From Phycisphaerales bacterium (GTDB lineage Bacteria > Planctomycetota > Phycisphaerae > Phycisphaerales > SM1A02): a stretch of 34,088 nucleotides of DNA. A program made the translations under genes and the position numbers. Below, one piece after another: positions 16,796 to 22,929 of the stretch; positions within the stretch are counted from its first letter, which is position 1, and the number at the start of each line of letters is the position of its first letter. Location: positions 1 to 34,088 of the forward strand of contig VEQS01000007.1 of assembly GCA_018883105.1 (NCBI GenBank). Reading direction: 5' to 3'. The notes beneath the pieces are model-generated. The model had not been told where the DNA came from and did not search any database. It worked only from the letters and a program-made list of their open reading frames with translations.

Positions 16796-16969
16796 TCAGC
16801 GGCCGCTGGCGACGTCGAACGGGCCCTGGCCGGTGGCGTCCATGTTCATCAGCGAGACCACGGTGGTGCCGAGGATCGCGAGGAGGACGGCCACGAGCAG
16901 GAGGCTCGTGTAGACGTTCAGCTGCGGCTTGGCGCGCTTGACGTCGGTCTTGGCGGCTGCGTCGGCCAT
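16796..16969 (-). CDS. Small single-pass membrane protein, 57 aa
   Basis: A complete short frame from the ATG at 16967-16969 to the TGA at 16796-16798. It has a charged cytoplasmic N-terminus (ADAAAKTDVKRAKPQ), one membrane helix at about residues 19-41 (VYTSLLLVAVLLAILGTTVV) and a short polar tail. Positive charges before the helix predict N-in topology. It starts 4 bp after the stop of the coiled-coil MreC-like gene, so the two are surely co-expressed, and it precedes mreB. No family recognised; the position suggests a small partner of the shape or envelope machinery. Confidence 0.75.
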   Translation of the reverse strand: MADAAAKTDVKRAKPQLNVYTSLLLVAVLLAILGTTVVSLMNMDATGQGPFDVASGR

Positions 16970-16973
16970 GGGT

Positions 16974-17873
16974 TCACTCGCCCTTGCGCGCGATGGCGCG
17001 GTGGCCGGACTTGACCTCGCCGCGGGCCTCGACGTCCTCGAGCTCGACGACGCCGACGGCGCGGTTCACGTCCACCTGGACGATGCGCAGGTTGCCGACG
17101 AAATTGGATCCGTCGGCGATGGTCATGACCCAGCCTTCCTTGACCCCGTCGCGGCTGCCCGCGTTGATCTCGGCGAGGATGGCATCGGGCTCGCGCTTCA
17201 CGTCGATGACGGTGGCGCTGAGGGAGCGGTCGGCGACGATGGGAAGGCCCGCGTCGGACGTGGCGCCGGCGCGCGGGCTGGCGGAGCCGTGCAGGGCCGC
17301 GTAGCGCTGCACGTCGGCGAGGGCGCGCTCCTTCTCGTCGCTCACGCGCTGCAGCTGCTCCTGGAGCTGGCGGCGGGCGGCCGACTCGCTGTCGAGGTCG
17401 CCCTGCAGGCGGGCGAGCGAGTCCTGCAGCTCCATGCGCGCCTTCTCGGCGGCGAGGTACTGCGTGCGCGCGGACTCGATGTCCTGGCGCATGGCGTCGA
17501 TGAGCTTGGTCTGCAGCGTGTCGTTGGCGCTGGCGGCGTTCAGCTGGCCCTTGAGGTCGGCGACCTCGAGGCGGGCGCGCTCGGCCTCGCGCTCCTTGTC
17601 GGCGCGGATCTGGACTTCCTTGTCGCGCTCCATCGTGGCGGCGCGAAGCTGGGCCTCGAGGCTGGCGGACTTGGCCTGCAGGGCGGCCAGGCTCGCGTTG
17701 TAGGCGTCCTTGGCGACGGCGCTCTCGGCATCACGGGTCTTCATCGCGGCCTGCGCATCGGCAGCCTGCTTCTTGAAGACGGACTGGTTGGTCGAGCTGA
17801 CCGCCGCCAGCGGCACGAGCGCGGCCACGAGGAGCGAGACGACGACGACGAGGATCTTGGTCAGGATGTGCAC
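16974..17873 (-). CDS. MreC-like membrane-anchored coiled-coil protein, 299 aa
   Basis: A single N-terminal membrane anchor (LTKILVVVVSLLVAALVPLA) is followed by a long heptad-rich coiled coil over about residues 35-190 (for example RADKEREAERARLEVADLKG). The C-terminal 90 residues form a beta-type domain with INAGSRDGVKEGWVMTIADG and NFVGNLRIVQVD. That segment resembles the repeated GVxxGxxV...VGxV pattern of MreC beta domains. I chose the GTG at 17873, which has a GAGG nine bases upstream. An ATG at 17906 is possible but sits in a 5' hairpin just after a good promoter. It lies upstream of mreB with only a 57-aa membrane protein gene between. A second MreC-like scaffold is an inference. Confidence 0.78.
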   Translation of the reverse strand: MHILTKILVVVVSLLVAALVPLAAVSSTNQSVFKKQAADAQAAMKTRDAESAVAKDAYNASLAALQAKSASLEAQLRAATMERDKEVQIRADKEREAERARLEVADLKGQLNAASANDTLQTKLIDAMRQDIESARTQYLAAEKARMELQDSLARLQGDLDSESAARRQLQEQLQRVSDEKERALADVQRYAALHGSASPRAGATSDAGLPIVADRSLSATVIDVKREPDAILAEINAGSRDGVKEGWVMTIADGSNFVGNLRIVQVDVNRAVGVVELEDVEARGEVKSGHRAIARKGE

Positions 17874-17934
17874 GGTCGGATGCCTCGGTGGGCGACAAGC
17901 GAACATCGCGGGCGGGTGCCCGCGACGATTATCA

Positions 17935-17964
17935 GTAGTACACGGAACCCATACGGAATGTCAA
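17935..17964 (-). promoter_or_regulatory. Sigma-70-like promoter for the coiled-coil/small membrane/mre genes
   Basis: On the minus strand a perfect -35 TTGACA (17964-17959) is followed after 18 bases by TACTAC (17940-17935). The upstream gene's TGA stop is part of the -35 hexamer. A transcript starting near 17927 would open with a GC-rich hairpin at 17925-17906 (8-bp stem, 4-base loop) and reach the GTG at 17873 after about 54 bases. Confidence 0.55.
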
Positions 17965-20762
17965 CGGGGCGCGGTTGCGGCGAGGATTCCCTTTGCCGCG
18001 GCCAGCTGCACCGAGGGGGCCTGGTCGAAGAGGAGCGGCTCGATTTCCGGAACCACCGGGGGACCCCCGGCATAGGCCAGGGCCAGGGCGGCCTGGGCAC
18101 GCACGGACGCCTCGCGGTCCTTCAGGAGCGTGCGCGAGAACTTGACCACCGCCTGGGCGTCCTGCGGGCTGATCTGCGCCAGCGCCACCGCGCAGCAGAT
18201 GCGCACCTCGGTCGGTCGCGCGGAGATGCCGGTGCCGTCGATCAGGCGCATCAGGATGGCGCGCGAGCCGTCGTCCTTGAGCGAGCCGACCTGCTGCGCG
18301 GCAAGCGCCGTGAACTCGGCCTGCTCGCCGGGGGCGAAGAGCGCGGCGCGGATGGGCTCGATGCCGTCGGGCTCGCCGAGGCGCGCGAGGGCCTCGGCCG
18401 CCTGCAGCTCGACGATGCGCACGCGCGCGGGGTTCACCTGGCGCATGCCCTTGCCGAGCGAGTCGCGGATCATCGGGATGGCGCTCGCGTTGCGCATCTC
18501 GCCGAGGATGAGGTACGCGTTCGAGCGCACCTCGGGGTCGTCGGAGCGCACCATGGCCGCCAGCGGGCTCGGGTCGACCGGCTGGCCCATGCGCGTGAGC
18601 GCATAGATGGCCGCGGCGCGGACCGACTCGCTCTCGTCGACGAGCAGCGGTCGCACGCGATCGGCGAGGTCGGCGAGCTTCGCGCGGCCGACGGCCATCG
18701 CGGCCACGAAGCGGACGCCGCGATTCGGGTCGGAGAGGAGCGGGCCCGCGACGGCGCGCAGGTCGTCCGGGGAGGTGTCGAGCGCCTCGAGCGCGTTGGC
18801 GCGGAAGACCGGGACCTCGGAGGCGCACGCCTGGCGCAGCAGCTTGACCGCGGCCGCGTGGGCGTCGCCGTTGGACTCGACCGGCAGCGGCTCGGCCACC
18901 ACGCGGCCCGTGGCCGCCGAGATGGTGGGCTCGCCGGTGGGCTGCACGCTCTGCGAGCGGCTCGACCAGGGCTGGTCGGACACCGCCGGGTCGGGGCCGC
19001 AGCCGCCGGCCAGGATCGCCGTGCACGCGGCGATCACGAGCGCCGCGGCCGTGCGCACGGAGGCGGCCGGCGCGCGGTGCGGGCGGACGAGGCGCGCAAG
19101 GATGATGGATCCGCAGAGGGCCATGAGTGCGAGGGATCCTACTTCGCCCACGGAGGCGAAGGGCGCACGGCGCGCGTCGATCGGCGGCGACGCGTGCATC
19201 CACGACGCGGTGCGCGGTGCGGGCGGCGTGCCGAGGAGCCGGCCCGAGGAGTCGATCGACGCGCAGAGGCCGGTGTTGGCGCCGCGCACCATGGGCGTGC
19301 GGGTCTCGATGGCGCGGAAGCGGGAGATCTGCACGTGCTGCGCGCGGCCGGCGTCGAACCAGCCGTACCAGCCGTCGTTGGTGATGTTCACCAGGAGGTC
19401 CGCGCGGCGCTCACGGCCCGAGGACGCGGGGTACACGAGGTCGCGGCACACCCAGCTCATGGCGTCCTCGAAGCAGATCGGAACCGCGACGCGCACCGCC
19501 CCGCCCTTCCACGGCACCTCGAAGCGCACGGGCTCGCCGCCGCGGTCGAGGTCAAAGGTCATGCCCTGCGCGCCGACGGAGAGGAGCGCACGCTCGAGCC
19601 AGTCCCAGTTGGAGATGTAGGGCATGGTCTCGCCGAAGGGCGCGAGGAAGACCTTGTCGTAGCGCGGGTACGGCGGCGCGCCCGGGCCCACGAGGTAGGC
19701 GCTGTTGAACTGGCGTTCCCAGCGGAAGCGGTCGCCCTCGGGCGACAGGCCGATGAACGCGGGGCTGCCGACCAGGACGGGTGCGCCGAGGCGCTCGGAC
19801 AGCCCGGAGACCATCTTGCGGAAGATGTCGCCGGGAAACCAGCCGTTCGATTCCTGGAGCGCGATGGTCGCGGGCTCGAGGCCGAAGCCGCCGAGCATCG
19901 TCTCGGGCCACACGGCGAGCGCGACGGGCAGGCCCTTCGCCGCGCAGTCGGCCGCGCCGCGGGCCGTGAGCTCGACGAAGGACGGCACGTCGCGCATCTG
20001 GTCGCGGGCGGTCCAGGCGACCTTGTTGCTCGTGGCGAGGTTGGTCTGGACGAGGAGGATGCCGGGCCCCGGCGCGGTGGGCGCCTGCGAGAGGCGCCAC
20101 GCGCCGTAGCCGGCGGCGAAGGCGAGGAACGCACCCGCGACGGCGACGCCCGGCAGGCGGGCACGCCGGCGGTGCGCAAGCGGCTCGCCGCGCGACTGCA
20201 GCACGTCCACCGCGGCGCCCGCGATCGTGAGCGCAAGCAGCGAGGCGAAGAGCTCGCCCATGAGGTCGGCACCCTGCACCAGGACGGGCAGCTCGATGAG
20301 CGGGTGCCCCCACCGAAACCACGGGTAGCCGTCGAAGAGGACGAGCGTGCGGAAGACCTCCGCACCGCCGAGTGCCACCGGCAGGAGCACCGCCCACGGC
20401 ACGCGCGCCGGCAGCACGCGGGCGCACGAGACGAGCGCGAAGAGACCGATCAGCTCATGAAACGTGCAGTAGGCGGCCAGCCCCGGCGTGCCCGCGGGGG
20501 TCACCTGGAAGAGCCACCAGTGCAGGATGAGCCACTTCGCGACGCCGACCGCAGCCACCGCGCCCGCGACCCGCCACGGCAGCGCCGCGCGCAGGCCGTG
20601 CGCGGCGCCTGCCCCTGCCAGGATGAGCACCATCGGCACGGGTGCCGCGAGCACCAGCGGCCAGGCATCGACCGGCGGGTAGGCGCAGCCGAAGAGGCCC
20701 GCCGACACGGCCGCAAGGCCCGCGGCACGGCGTGCGGTCATCGGCGCGGCGGGTGCGGCCAC
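17961..20762 (-). CDS. lnt: Apolipoprotein N-acyltransferase fused to a HEAT-repeat domain, 933 aa
   Basis: Residues 1-560 are Lnt: N-terminal membrane helices, then a periplasmic nitrilase domain with the full Glu-Lys-Cys triad (WPETM E287, YDKVFLAPFGE K370, ICFEDAMSW C430), and a last helix around LALMALCGSIILARL. Lnt adds the third acyl chain to lipoproteins. Without any stop the frame continues through a basic loop and a second hydrophobic stretch, TAAALVIAACTAILAGGC, ending in a lipobox-like LAGG-Cys588. A 45-residue linker and about six HEAT-type repeats follow (RFVAAMAVGRAKLADLADRV, VRAAAIYALTRMG). Typical Lnt is about 500-550 aa. Start GTG at 20762 is 3 bp after accD. An internal GTG at 19058 could start a separate lipoprotein. 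Confidence 0.92.
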   Translation of the reverse strand: MAAPAAPMTARRAAGLAAVSAGLFGCAYPPVDAWPLVLAAPVPMVLILAGAGAAHGLRAALPWRVAGAVAAVGVAKWLILHWWLFQVTPAGTPGLAAYCTFHELIGLFALVSCARVLPARVPWAVLLPVALGGAEVFRTLVLFDGYPWFRWGHPLIELPVLVQGADLMGELFASLLALTIAGAAVDVLQSRGEPLAHRRRARLPGVAVAGAFLAFAAGYGAWRLSQAPTAPGPGILLVQTNLATSNKVAWTARDQMRDVPSFVELTARGAADCAAKGLPVALAVWPETMLGGFGLEPATIALQESNGWFPGDIFRKMVSGLSERLGAPVLVGSPAFIGLSPEGDRFRWERQFNSAYLVGPGAPPYPRYDKVFLAPFGETMPYISNWDWLERALLSVGAQGMTFDLDRGGEPVRFEVPWKGGAVRVAVPICFEDAMSWVCRDLVYPASSGRERRADLLVNITNDGWYGWFDAGRAQHVQISRFRAIETRTPMVRGANTGLCASIDSSGRLLGTPPAPRTASWMHASPPIDARRAPFASVGEVGSLALMALCGSIILARLVRPHRAPAASVRTAAALVIAACTAILAGGCGPDPAVSDQPWSSRSQSVQPTGEPTISAATGRVVAEPLPVESNGDAHAAAVKLLRQACASEVPVFRANALEALDTSPDDLRAVAGPLLSDPNRGVRFVAAMAVGRAKLADLADRVRPLLVDESESVRAAAIYALTRMGQPVDPSPLAAMVRSDDPEVRSNAYLILGEMRNASAIPMIRDSLGKGMRQVNPARVRIVELQAAEALARLGEPDGIEPIRAALFAPGEQAEFTALAAQQVGSLKDDGSRAILMRLIDGTGISARPTEVRICCAVALAQISPQDAQAVVKFSRTLLKDREASVRAQAALALAYAGGPPVVPEIEPLLFDQAPSVQLAAAKGILAATAPR
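18999..19058 (-). other. Internal signal-anchor with lipobox inside the Lnt-HEAT protein
   Basis: This segment encodes VRTAAALVIAAC then TAILAGGC, a hydrophobic helix ending in a lipobox-like LAGG-Cys (Cys codon 19001-18999), directly after an arginine-rich loop. It has all the parts of a lipoprotein signal but sits in frame inside a larger protein. The GTG at 19058 is the only nearby candidate for an independent start and has no ribosome-binding site I can see. Confidence 0.6.
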
Positions 20763-20765
20763 CCG

Positions 20766-21599
20766 TCACTTCCCGGCGTAGTCGATGACGCGGCTGATCT
20801 CGGTGCGCAGCGCGGAGCGGTGCACGATCCGGTCGACGAAGCCGGCCTTCAGCAGGAACTCCGCCGTCTGGAAGCCCTCGGGCAGCTCCTGGCGGATCGT
20901 CTGCGCGATGACGCGCGGGCCGGCGAAGCCGATGAGGGCGTGCGGCTCGGCGAAGATGACGTCGCCGAGCATGGCGTAGCTCGCGGTGACGCCGCCGGTG
21001 GTCGGGTCGGCGAGCACCGAGACGTAGAGCCCGCCCGCGTCGTCGAAGCGCGCGAGCGCGGCGCTGGTCTTGGCCATCTGCATCAGCGAGAACCCGGATT
21101 CCTGCATGCGCGCGCCGCCGGAGCAGCTGACGATGACGAGCGGCAGGTTGTGGTCGGTGGCGTGCTCGATGGCGCGGGTCAGGCGCTCGCCGACCACGCT
21201 TCCCATGGAACCGGCCATGAACGTGAAGTCCATGACGCCGACGACCACCTTTCGGCCCTTGATGAAGCCGGTGCCGGTCTGGACGCCGTCGATCTCGCCG
21301 CTCTTGCGCTGCATGTCGCGGAGGCGGTCGACGTAGGGCTTCTGGTCGACGAAGCCGAGCGGGTCCATCGGCGCCATGTCGGCATCGCGGGCCTCGAAGG
21401 TGCCGGGGTCGAGGAGCTGCTCGATGCGCCGCCGCGCCGAGATGCGCATGTGGTGGTCGCACTTCGGGCAGACCATGAGGTTCGCCTCGAGGCTCTTGCG
21501 GAAGATCGTCTCCGCGCACTCCGGGCACTGCGTCCAGAGGCCGTCGGGGACGGCGCGCTTGGTGACGACCTGCGTCTCGGTCCAGGTGGGTTCGGGCAC
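20766..21599 (-). CDS. accD: Acetyl-CoA carboxylase carboxyltransferase beta subunit, 277 aa
   Basis: The N-terminal zinc ribbon has all four cysteines (CPEC C25/C28 and CPKC C44/C47). The crotonase-type carboxyltransferase core includes KVVVGVMDFTFMAGSMGSVV, CSGGARMQESGFSLMQMAK and DPTTGGVTASYAMLGD, and the C-terminal part has FAGPRVIAQTIRQELPEGFQ. It transfers carboxyl from biotin to acetyl-CoA, the first step of fatty-acid synthesis, together with AccA, which is not in this window. Start is the GTG at 21597-21599, with AAGGAG seven bases upstream. It sits between the histidine-phosphatase-like gene and lnt in the same transcriptional direction. Confidence 0.97.
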   Translation of the reverse strand: MPEPTWTETQVVTKRAVPDGLWTQCPECAETIFRKSLEANLMVCPKCDHHMRISARRRIEQLLDPGTFEARDADMAPMDPLGFVDQKPYVDRLRDMQRKSGEIDGVQTGTGFIKGRKVVVGVMDFTFMAGSMGSVVGERLTRAIEHATDHNLPLVIVSCSGGARMQESGFSLMQMAKTSAALARFDDAGGLYVSVLADPTTGGVTASYAMLGDVIFAEPHALIGFAGPRVIAQTIRQELPEGFQTAEFLLKAGFVDRIVHRSALRTEISRVIDYAGK

Positions 21600-21640
21600 T
21601 CCGTTGCTCCTTGCGGGCGAAGTGTACCCCTGCGCCGCGC

Positions 21641-22231
21641 TCAGTCGCCGAGCGCGGCGGCGGCGCCCTCGGGAAGCACGTGGCGCGTGCACCATCCGCG
21701 GCCCTCGACACGCGACCAGAGCGCGCTGCCGTCGCCGCGGGCGAGCGCATCGCGCACGGTGGCGAGCGCGAAGTCGTGCACCACCAGGCCCAGCCGGCGG
21801 CCCTCGTGGCGGTCGAGCGCGGCCGCGAACGCATCGAGGATGCGCGCGCGGGCGTCGGAGAGCGGTTCGCCTTCCGGCGGAACGGCGGTGAGCGGCGACT
21901 CGATCCACTCGGCAAAGCGGCGCTCGAAGCGGCGCTCGAACTCGGCGATTCCCAGGCCCTCCAGGAGCCCGAGGTCCGGGTCGCGCAGCCCGCGGTCGGC
22001 GCGCACGCCGCAGGCGAAGCGGCTGGCGACGACGCGCGCGCTCTCGGCGGCGGCGTCGTCGGGGGCATGGATCAGGACGTCGGGGCCCTCGTCGAGCCGC
22101 GCGACGCGGTCGCGGAGCTCGCGCAGCGAGTCCTCCATCGCCGGCAGGTCGGTGGCGCCGCGCAGGCGGCGGTCGACGTCCCAGGCCGTGTCGGCCGGGC
22201 GCATGAGCCAGAGCGAGGTGGGACCGGGCAT
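21641..22231 (-). CDS. Histidine phosphatase-fold protein with degenerate RHG motif, 196 aa
   Basis: The protein follows the phosphoglycerate-mutase-like plan: an opening strand SLWLMRPADTAWDVDRRL, a middle segment with PDLGLLEGLGIAEFERRF, and LGLVVHDFALATVRDALARG near the C-terminus. Active members begin with RHG; here that reads RPA, so the phospho-accepting histidine is replaced by proline. Arg and the second catalytic histidine remain. It may be an inactive relative or a binding protein. The ATG at 22231 lies 5 bp after the rpe stop, so co-expression is likely. The fold assignment is fairly sure, activity is doubtful. Confidence 0.78.
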   Translation of the reverse strand: MPGPTSLWLMRPADTAWDVDRRLRGATDLPAMEDSLRELRDRVARLDEGPDVLIHAPDDAAAESARVVASRFACGVRADRGLRDPDLGLLEGLGIAEFERRFERRFAEWIESPLTAVPPEGEPLSDARARILDAFAAALDRHEGRRLGLVVHDFALATVRDALARGDGSALWSRVEGRGWCTRHVLPEGAAAALGD

Positions 22232-22236
22232 CGCGC

Positions 22237-22929
22237 TCAGCCGCGGAGGGCGCGCGCGACGGCGGCGCGGTCGGCGGCGCCGAAGAAGGCGCTGGCGCTG
22301 ATCAGGACGTCGCAGCCGGCGTCGCGGCAGGCCGCGGCCGTTGCGGGCGACACGCCGCCGTCGATCATCAGGCGCTGCGCAGGGGTCATGCGCGCGCGGA
22401 TCGCCGGGCCCTTCGAGAGCACCGACGGGATGAACGACTGCCCCGAGTAGCCCGGGTGCACGCCCATCAGCATGACGGTGTCCACGTGCGCCAGCGCGTC
22501 GAAGCACGCCTCGGCCGGCGTGTCCGGGTTGAGGACCACGCCGGGGGTCATGCCCGCGGCGCGGATCGAGGCGGCGAGCGAGCCGGGGTCGCGCACCACC
22601 TCGGCGTGGAACTGCAGGTGGTCGGCGCCGGCCTCCGCGAACGGGCGCACGAAGTGCGCCGGGTCGGTCACCATCAGGTGGACGTCGATGCACGTGTTGG
22701 GCACCGCGCGGCGGACCGCGGCGCATATGGCCGGCCCCATGGAGAGGTTCGGCACGAAGTGCCCGTCCATCACGTCGACGTGCAGCAGGTCGCCGCCGGC
22801 GGCGACGGCGGAGCGGCATTCCTCGCCGAGGCGCGTGAAGTCCGCGGAGAGGACCGATGGCGCCACCAGGACGCGCCGGTCGGTGCGCAGGAGTTCCTGC
22901 CGGCGATGCATCGCGGCGGGCGCGGTCAC
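22237..22929 (-). CDS. rpe: Ribulose-phosphate 3-epimerase, 230 aa
   Basis: The TIM-barrel motifs of Rpe are all present: VLVAPSVLSADFTRLGEE, HVDVMDGHFVPNLSMGP, DVHLMVTDP, VMLMGVHPGYSGQSFIP (catalytic and phosphate-binding) and MIDGGVS with ISASAFF. It interconverts ribulose-5-phosphate and xylulose-5-phosphate in the pentose phosphate or Calvin-type pathways. The chosen GTG at 22927-22929 overlaps the stop of the redoxin gene (GTGA). An ATG six codons downstream, at 22911, is an alternative with no ribosome-binding site seen. Confidence 0.95.
   Translation of the reverse strand: MTAPAAMHRRQELLRTDRRVLVAPSVLSADFTRLGEECRSAVAAGGDLLHVDVMDGHFVPNLSMGPAICAAVRRAVPNTCIDVHLMVTDPAHFVRPFAEAGADHLQFHAEVVRDPGSLAASIRAAGMTPGVVLNPDTPAEACFDALAHVDTVMLMGVHPGYSGQSFIPSVLSKGPAIRARMTPAQRLMIDGGVSPATAAACRDAGCDVLISASAFFGAADRAAVARALRG

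Follow-up and report, generated by a model that had tools for sequence, protein, structure and literature searches.

One gene in the window, by which is meant the whole stretch of 34,088 nucleotides that was analysed, encodes a predicted apolipoprotein N-acyltransferase (Lnt) that runs through an internal type II signal peptide into a HEAT-repeat domain, and it probably encodes a prokaryotic polyprotein in which Lgt and LspA would process the internal lipobox and release the HEAT lipoprotein beside Lnt. The frame opens with GTG at 20762 on the minus strand and continues for 933 codons to a stop ending at 17961 (Table 1). A single Lnt and HEAT frame of this length had been claimed in a preliminary description of the window, and it is confirmed by its presence in 41 other genomes. 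That description is likewise borne out in its architecture, its candidate lipobox and its argument on topology, and E287, K370, C430 and C588 stand exactly where it had placed them. Two proteins that are separate in relatives share one open frame here and are joined via a signal peptide, which is the make-up of a polyprotein. The signal peptide lies at residues ~560-588 of the 933-aa frame, so it does not have the N-terminal position of a lipoprotein signal; the window protein would work like a lipoprotein precursor without being a standard bacterial lipoprotein. If the polyprotein reading is true, an enzyme of the lipoprotein pathway would be made attached to a substrate of the same pathway and would be freed only by the preceding enzymes, Lgt and LspA.

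Table 1. Features of the fused gene and its upstream neighbour, in window coordinates.
Feature	Residues	Position	Strand	Basis
Fused gene, Lnt + internal type II signal peptide + HEAT domain	933 aa	17961..20762	-	single open frame
Lnt part	1-560	19083..20762	-	TIGR00546, LNT_N, CN_hydrolase; fold match to solved Lnt
Catalytic triad, Glu	E287	19902..19904	-	invariant in 32 aligned fusions
Catalytic triad, Lys	K370	19653..19655	-	invariant in 32 aligned fusions
Catalytic nucleophile	C430	19473..19475	-	invariant in 32 aligned fusions
Last Lnt membrane helix	541-559	19086..19142	-	AlphaFold2 model
Arg-rich loop (former n-region), net charge +4	557-570	19053..19094	-	
Second hydrophobic segment (former h-region)	571-587	19002..19052	-	hydropathy; model helix 567-586
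Internal lipobox Cys, proposed LspA site	C588	18999..19001	-	42/42 fusions
Linker, conserved W-S motif at 599-600	589-633	18864..18998	-	
HEAT-repeat domain	634-930	17973..18863	-	HEAT_2 80 bits; tandem helices in model
accD (acetyl-CoA carboxylase beta subunit)		20766..21908	-	TIGR00515 394 bits

The Lnt half is a complete Lnt as judged from profiles and residue positions, which agrees with the claim made for it earlier. The equivalog profile TIGR00546 (lnt) matches residues 72-508 with 202.2 bits against a cut-off of 132.9, and both LNT_N (residues 20-182) and CN_hydrolase (residues 266-513) score above their Pfam cut-offs. The catalytic Glu-Lys-Cys triad, formed in E. coli Lnt by E267, K335 and C387 (PMC10313180), is present in the window protein as E287, K370 and C430. 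An AlphaFold2 model made from 32 fused proteins (mean pLDDT 87) has the membrane bundle and the nitrilase-like domain of the Lnt fold and matches solved Lnt with E-values down to 8e-19, the top structural matches being the enzymes of E. coli and P. aeruginosa (5N6H, 5VRG, 5N6M). In the window genome, the profile search gave no second LNT_N match.

The HEAT half is matched by HEAT_2 (PF13646) with 80 bits against a cut-off of 27.7, the best stretch being residues 675-748, and by PF02985 with 40.2 bits against 23.5; the window genome has no other copy of the family. The free relatives of this domain explain where the junction comes from. In the order, the free HEAT genes lie directly downstream of lnt on the same strand with ends that often overlap, either in another frame than lnt or behind a stop, and usually encode a lipoprotein with its own signal peptide. 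Across the family of the window genome they have their own start, n-region and lipobox, and hence the internal segment of the fusion had a true type II signal peptide as its ancestor. The linkage extends further: in 18 of 19 additional loci across the class, which were picked by their HEAT match alone (five belong to family f6, within the order of the window genome, and all others lie outside that order), lnt is immediately upstream on the same strand. Most of the HEAT proteins encoded next to lnt at these class-wide loci (L148-L167) carry a lipobox. The pairing was not seen outside the class in a sample of the phylum; the HEAT matches in those genomes were weak and lay on different contigs.

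The lipobox is not universal among these neighbours. HEAT proteins beside lnt whose signal peptide has no lipobox Cys, and otherwise looks ordinary, belong mostly to families f5 and f6 (loci L070, L071, L074, L075, L078-L080, L082, L083, L086, L087 and L163-L167); therefore lipidation has been lost in those members of the order and the place beside lnt has been kept. Within the genus of the window genome the HEAT part is more conserved than Lnt (0.18 vs 0.27 amino-acid differences per site). This conservation, together with the class-wide place beside lnt, argues that the HEAT protein is more than a passenger; at a best guess, it acts in the periplasm as a partner of Lnt or in the handling of lipoproteins.

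The distribution of the fusion was followed in 60 relatives and then in 150 genomes of the family, with the loci fetched and every frame recomputed from stop to stop. Both halves were present at 110 Phycisphaerales loci, fused in 42 and separate in 68, so that the two parts are not always separate genes in relatives, an outcome the preliminary description had named as fatal to its proposal. The fusions fall into nine genera: g1, to which the window genome belongs (11 genomes), g2 (1), g6 (3), g16 (1), g18 (6), g46 (1), g56 (9), g59 (9) and g60 (1). All 11 genomes of g1 with both halves on one contig have the in-frame fusion, as do 31 genomes elsewhere. A sequencing or assembly error hiding a stop between two normal genes, likewise named at the outset as a way for the proposal to fail, would be suggested by the fragmented state of the window assembly (255 contigs, 87% complete, 6% contaminated) and by G036, in which a single TGA parts the two genes in one frame. 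With the same open frame in 41 further genomes, this explanation is refuted for the genus of the window and its probability overall is negligible; such an error is possible only for the isolated second case described below, G065. Three long Lnt frames from other classes of the phylum (G393, G402 and G436) were set aside as not the same fusion, as their Lnt lies in the C-terminal half and no HEAT domain comes after it.

A tree of the 110 Lnt and HEAT pairs (863 columns) supports two origins as the best count, one old fusion now found in 8 genera and 41 genomes and one known from a single genome. The single case, G065, is placed with strong support beside genus g61, which is unfused, and a single origin for all 42 fusions was rejected by the AU test (p = 0.0003). 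When the other 41 fusions were held as one clade, the log-likelihood was 41 above that of the free search, with an AU p of 0.91; this better constrained tree supersedes a quick tree that had suggested up to four changes. The fusion is an ancestral pair of neighbouring genes that became one frame when lnt lost its stop, and it thus derives from a linkage that was already there. The junction of G036 (locus L045), with its lnt and HEAT genes in one frame, is one mutation away from fusion.

At the junction, the loop RLVRPHRAPAASVR holds four Arg and no acidic residue. Its charge and the identity of R560 in 11 of 11 genomes of the genus bear out the Arg-rich loop that had been noticed earlier, and the loop ahead of the helix is net positive in every fusion measured. 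In the window protein the +4 loop is followed by 17 uncharged residues that end in LAGG just ahead of C588, which is the n-region and h-region arrangement of a type II signal peptide. Within the genus, the segment from R560 to C588 differs between genomes in its sequence and, by whole codons, in its length, and both of these residues are conserved in all 11 genomes, with a small residue at position -1. Across 32 aligned fusions the invariant columns run from G539 to C588 to A638, so that Cys588 is the sole fixed residue between the two outer ones. The check for conservation of Cys588 in fusions of Lnt and HEAT thus gave a lipobox with an invariant Cys, kept in 42 of 42, and the residue before it is Gly in 34, Ala in 7 and Ser in 1.

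The motif itself must be read with care. The strict lipobox consensus is matched about equally often by the fusions (20 of 42) and by the free relatives tested (19 of 44), which is in line with the polyprotein reading. The window's own A-G-G-C misses it, which counts against that reading. A loose PROSITE-type lipobox pattern, run as a control, also matched the Lnt half of 22 of the 42 fusions. Such chance matches make a pattern match insufficient, and it was rejected as weak stand-alone evidence; the argument rests instead on the invariance of the Cys and on its setting. After the Cys, W599 and S600 are nearly invariant in the 32 aligned fusions, and the AlphaFold2 model has a pLDDT under 50 at residues 587-622. 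A disordered tether has been described for ordinary lipoproteins, and the predicted disorder after Cys588 fits it (PMC8689077).

These features bear on the choice, left undecided at first, between a tethered domain and a cleaved lipoprotein. If the second segment were a permanent ninth membrane helix, the HEAT part would stay attached to Lnt as a periplasmic domain for positioning substrates or partners. The frame is continuous, eight genera have retained the fusion with no reversal detected among them, the 17-residue segment of the window can form a helix almost as long as the membrane is thick, and a HEAT gene beside lnt throughout the class is what a functional partner would give. An uncleaved tether, however, leaves unexplained why nothing but the Cys and the small residue preceding it is fixed in a hypervariable segment. 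It also leaves unexplained the hydrophobic stretches of just 13-15 residues in G028, G075 and genus g18, which are more in keeping with a signal peptide than with a permanent anchor. With the Cys kept in 42 of 42 fusions, the cleaved lipoprotein is the favoured alternative and the tether is unlikely.

A further explanation is that the HEAT lipoprotein is made from its own start codon inside the frame, the read-through product being minor or unimportant. All six genomes of genus g18 (L047, L096-L099 and L102) have a GTG or ATG 19 codons ahead of the Cys, followed by RR and a short hydrophobic segment, and plausible start codons are found in several g56 genomes too; separate initiation is possible in g18. 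In the genus of the window, however, 5 of 10 genomes have no candidate even under a loose rule, nor is the position conserved. Genes this rich in GC contain many GTG codons, and chance starts are therefore expected. The junction, moreover, remains in frame through whole-codon insertions and deletions. As a general account of these loci, internal initiation is quite improbable.

The preferred reading, a polyprotein cut at the internal lipobox, could work as follows. The stop codon of lnt would have been lost, and lnt would run in frame into the adjacent gene of the HEAT lipoprotein. Membrane insertion of Lnt would follow its usual course and leave the end of the last Lnt helix in the cytoplasm. 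The Arg-rich loop would hold that end inside, and the old signal peptide would serve as the next, outgoing helix, carrying the HEAT domain to the periplasm. Cys588 would then receive diacylglycerol from Lgt, and a cut by LspA just ahead of this residue would give, next to Lnt, a HEAT lipoprotein whose N-terminal Cys is free. The used signal peptide would stay on Lnt as an additional helix at the C-terminus. Finally, Lnt could N-acylate the released HEAT Cys with a third acyl chain. The order of events is that of the established pathway of Lgt, LspA and then Lnt, which adds the third acyl chain (PMC8689077). The sequences show the fusion, its ancestry and conservation, and an invariant Cys within a hypervariable junction; cleavage, lipidation and acylation of the partner in cis are inferred, and a direct handover of the HEAT part to the attached acyltransferase is plausible. 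The window genome has two matches each to LspA (G000:C39, G000:C252) and Lgt (G000:C9, G000:C251), of which the second copies may not belong to the genome, as the assembly is 6% contaminated.

In 7 of the 11 genomes of the genus (L016-L021 and L023), Asp directly follows the lipobox Cys. In E. coli, Asp at this place causes retention in the inner membrane. A profile search of the window genome with Pfam LolA gave no match.

Several known systems resemble the fusion in part. In Ppm1 (Rv2051c) of M. tuberculosis, too, Lnt forms the N-terminal part of a fusion with a neighbouring gene's product, and relatives keep that gene separate (PMC3460810). The partner in Ppm1 is, however, a polyprenol-monophosphomannose synthase and no lipobox is described at the junction, whereas here a periplasmic lipoprotein stands behind an internal type II signal peptide. 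The Lnt of E. coli and P. aeruginosa share the fold and the Glu-Lys-Cys triad with the window Lnt. Unlike the window protein, the solved enzymes end after the last helix with a cytoplasmic C-terminus and have no further helix or HEAT domain (PMC10313180). Similarly, the separate lnt and HEAT pair of other Phycisphaerae has the same gene order and HEAT family, with a lipobox in most cases, but its HEAT protein, unlike the fusion, has its own start and an N-terminal signal peptide (one without lipobox in f5 and f6). Another example is FbcH of Bradyrhizobium japonicum, a precursor of cytochromes b and c1 in which an internal signal peptide is the cleavage site. Like the window fusion, it consists of a polytopic membrane protein followed by a signal peptide and the body of an exported protein. 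FbcH is cut by signal peptidase I with no lipidation, and its partners are respiratory subunits; they are not enzymes of the processing pathway, whereas the window fusion holds Lnt. Lnt fused to a neighbour (Ppm1) and a bacterial polyprotein with an internal signal peptide (FbcH) are already known. A literature search without most subscription journals gave no report of an Lnt-HEAT fusion, of an internal lipobox or of Lnt joined to a lipoprotein, and nothing usable on Lnt in Phycisphaerae or on FbcH.

If the polyprotein reading is right, the fusion is a natural test of whether Lgt and LspA accept an internal lipobox behind eight membrane helices. It also exposes an uncharacterised HEAT protein that adjoins lnt across a bacterial class. 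This suggests that the HEAT neighbour is a working partner of Lnt outside the E. coli model, and it may be a general Lnt partner in Phycisphaerae. A more specific version, to be held only tentatively and with the balance tilted against it, is a dedicated pair: LspA would cut the polyprotein, Lnt would acylate the HEAT part in cis, the signal peptide would be left as a permanent extra helix, and the HEAT protein would stay as the Phycisphaerae-wide periplasmic partner that aids Lnt or lipoprotein handling.

The surroundings of the gene are as follows. An open frame of 1790 codons (16929-22301, plus strand) is antisense to accD and the fused gene; it had no family match in the profile search and is probably an effect of the high GC content. 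Between the fused gene and mreB lies a 310-aa frame (16974-17906, minus strand) with a weak SMC-like match only, for which the profile search found no Pfam family. On the other side, accD ends 3 bases before the lnt start, and accD and the fused gene are probably co-transcribed.
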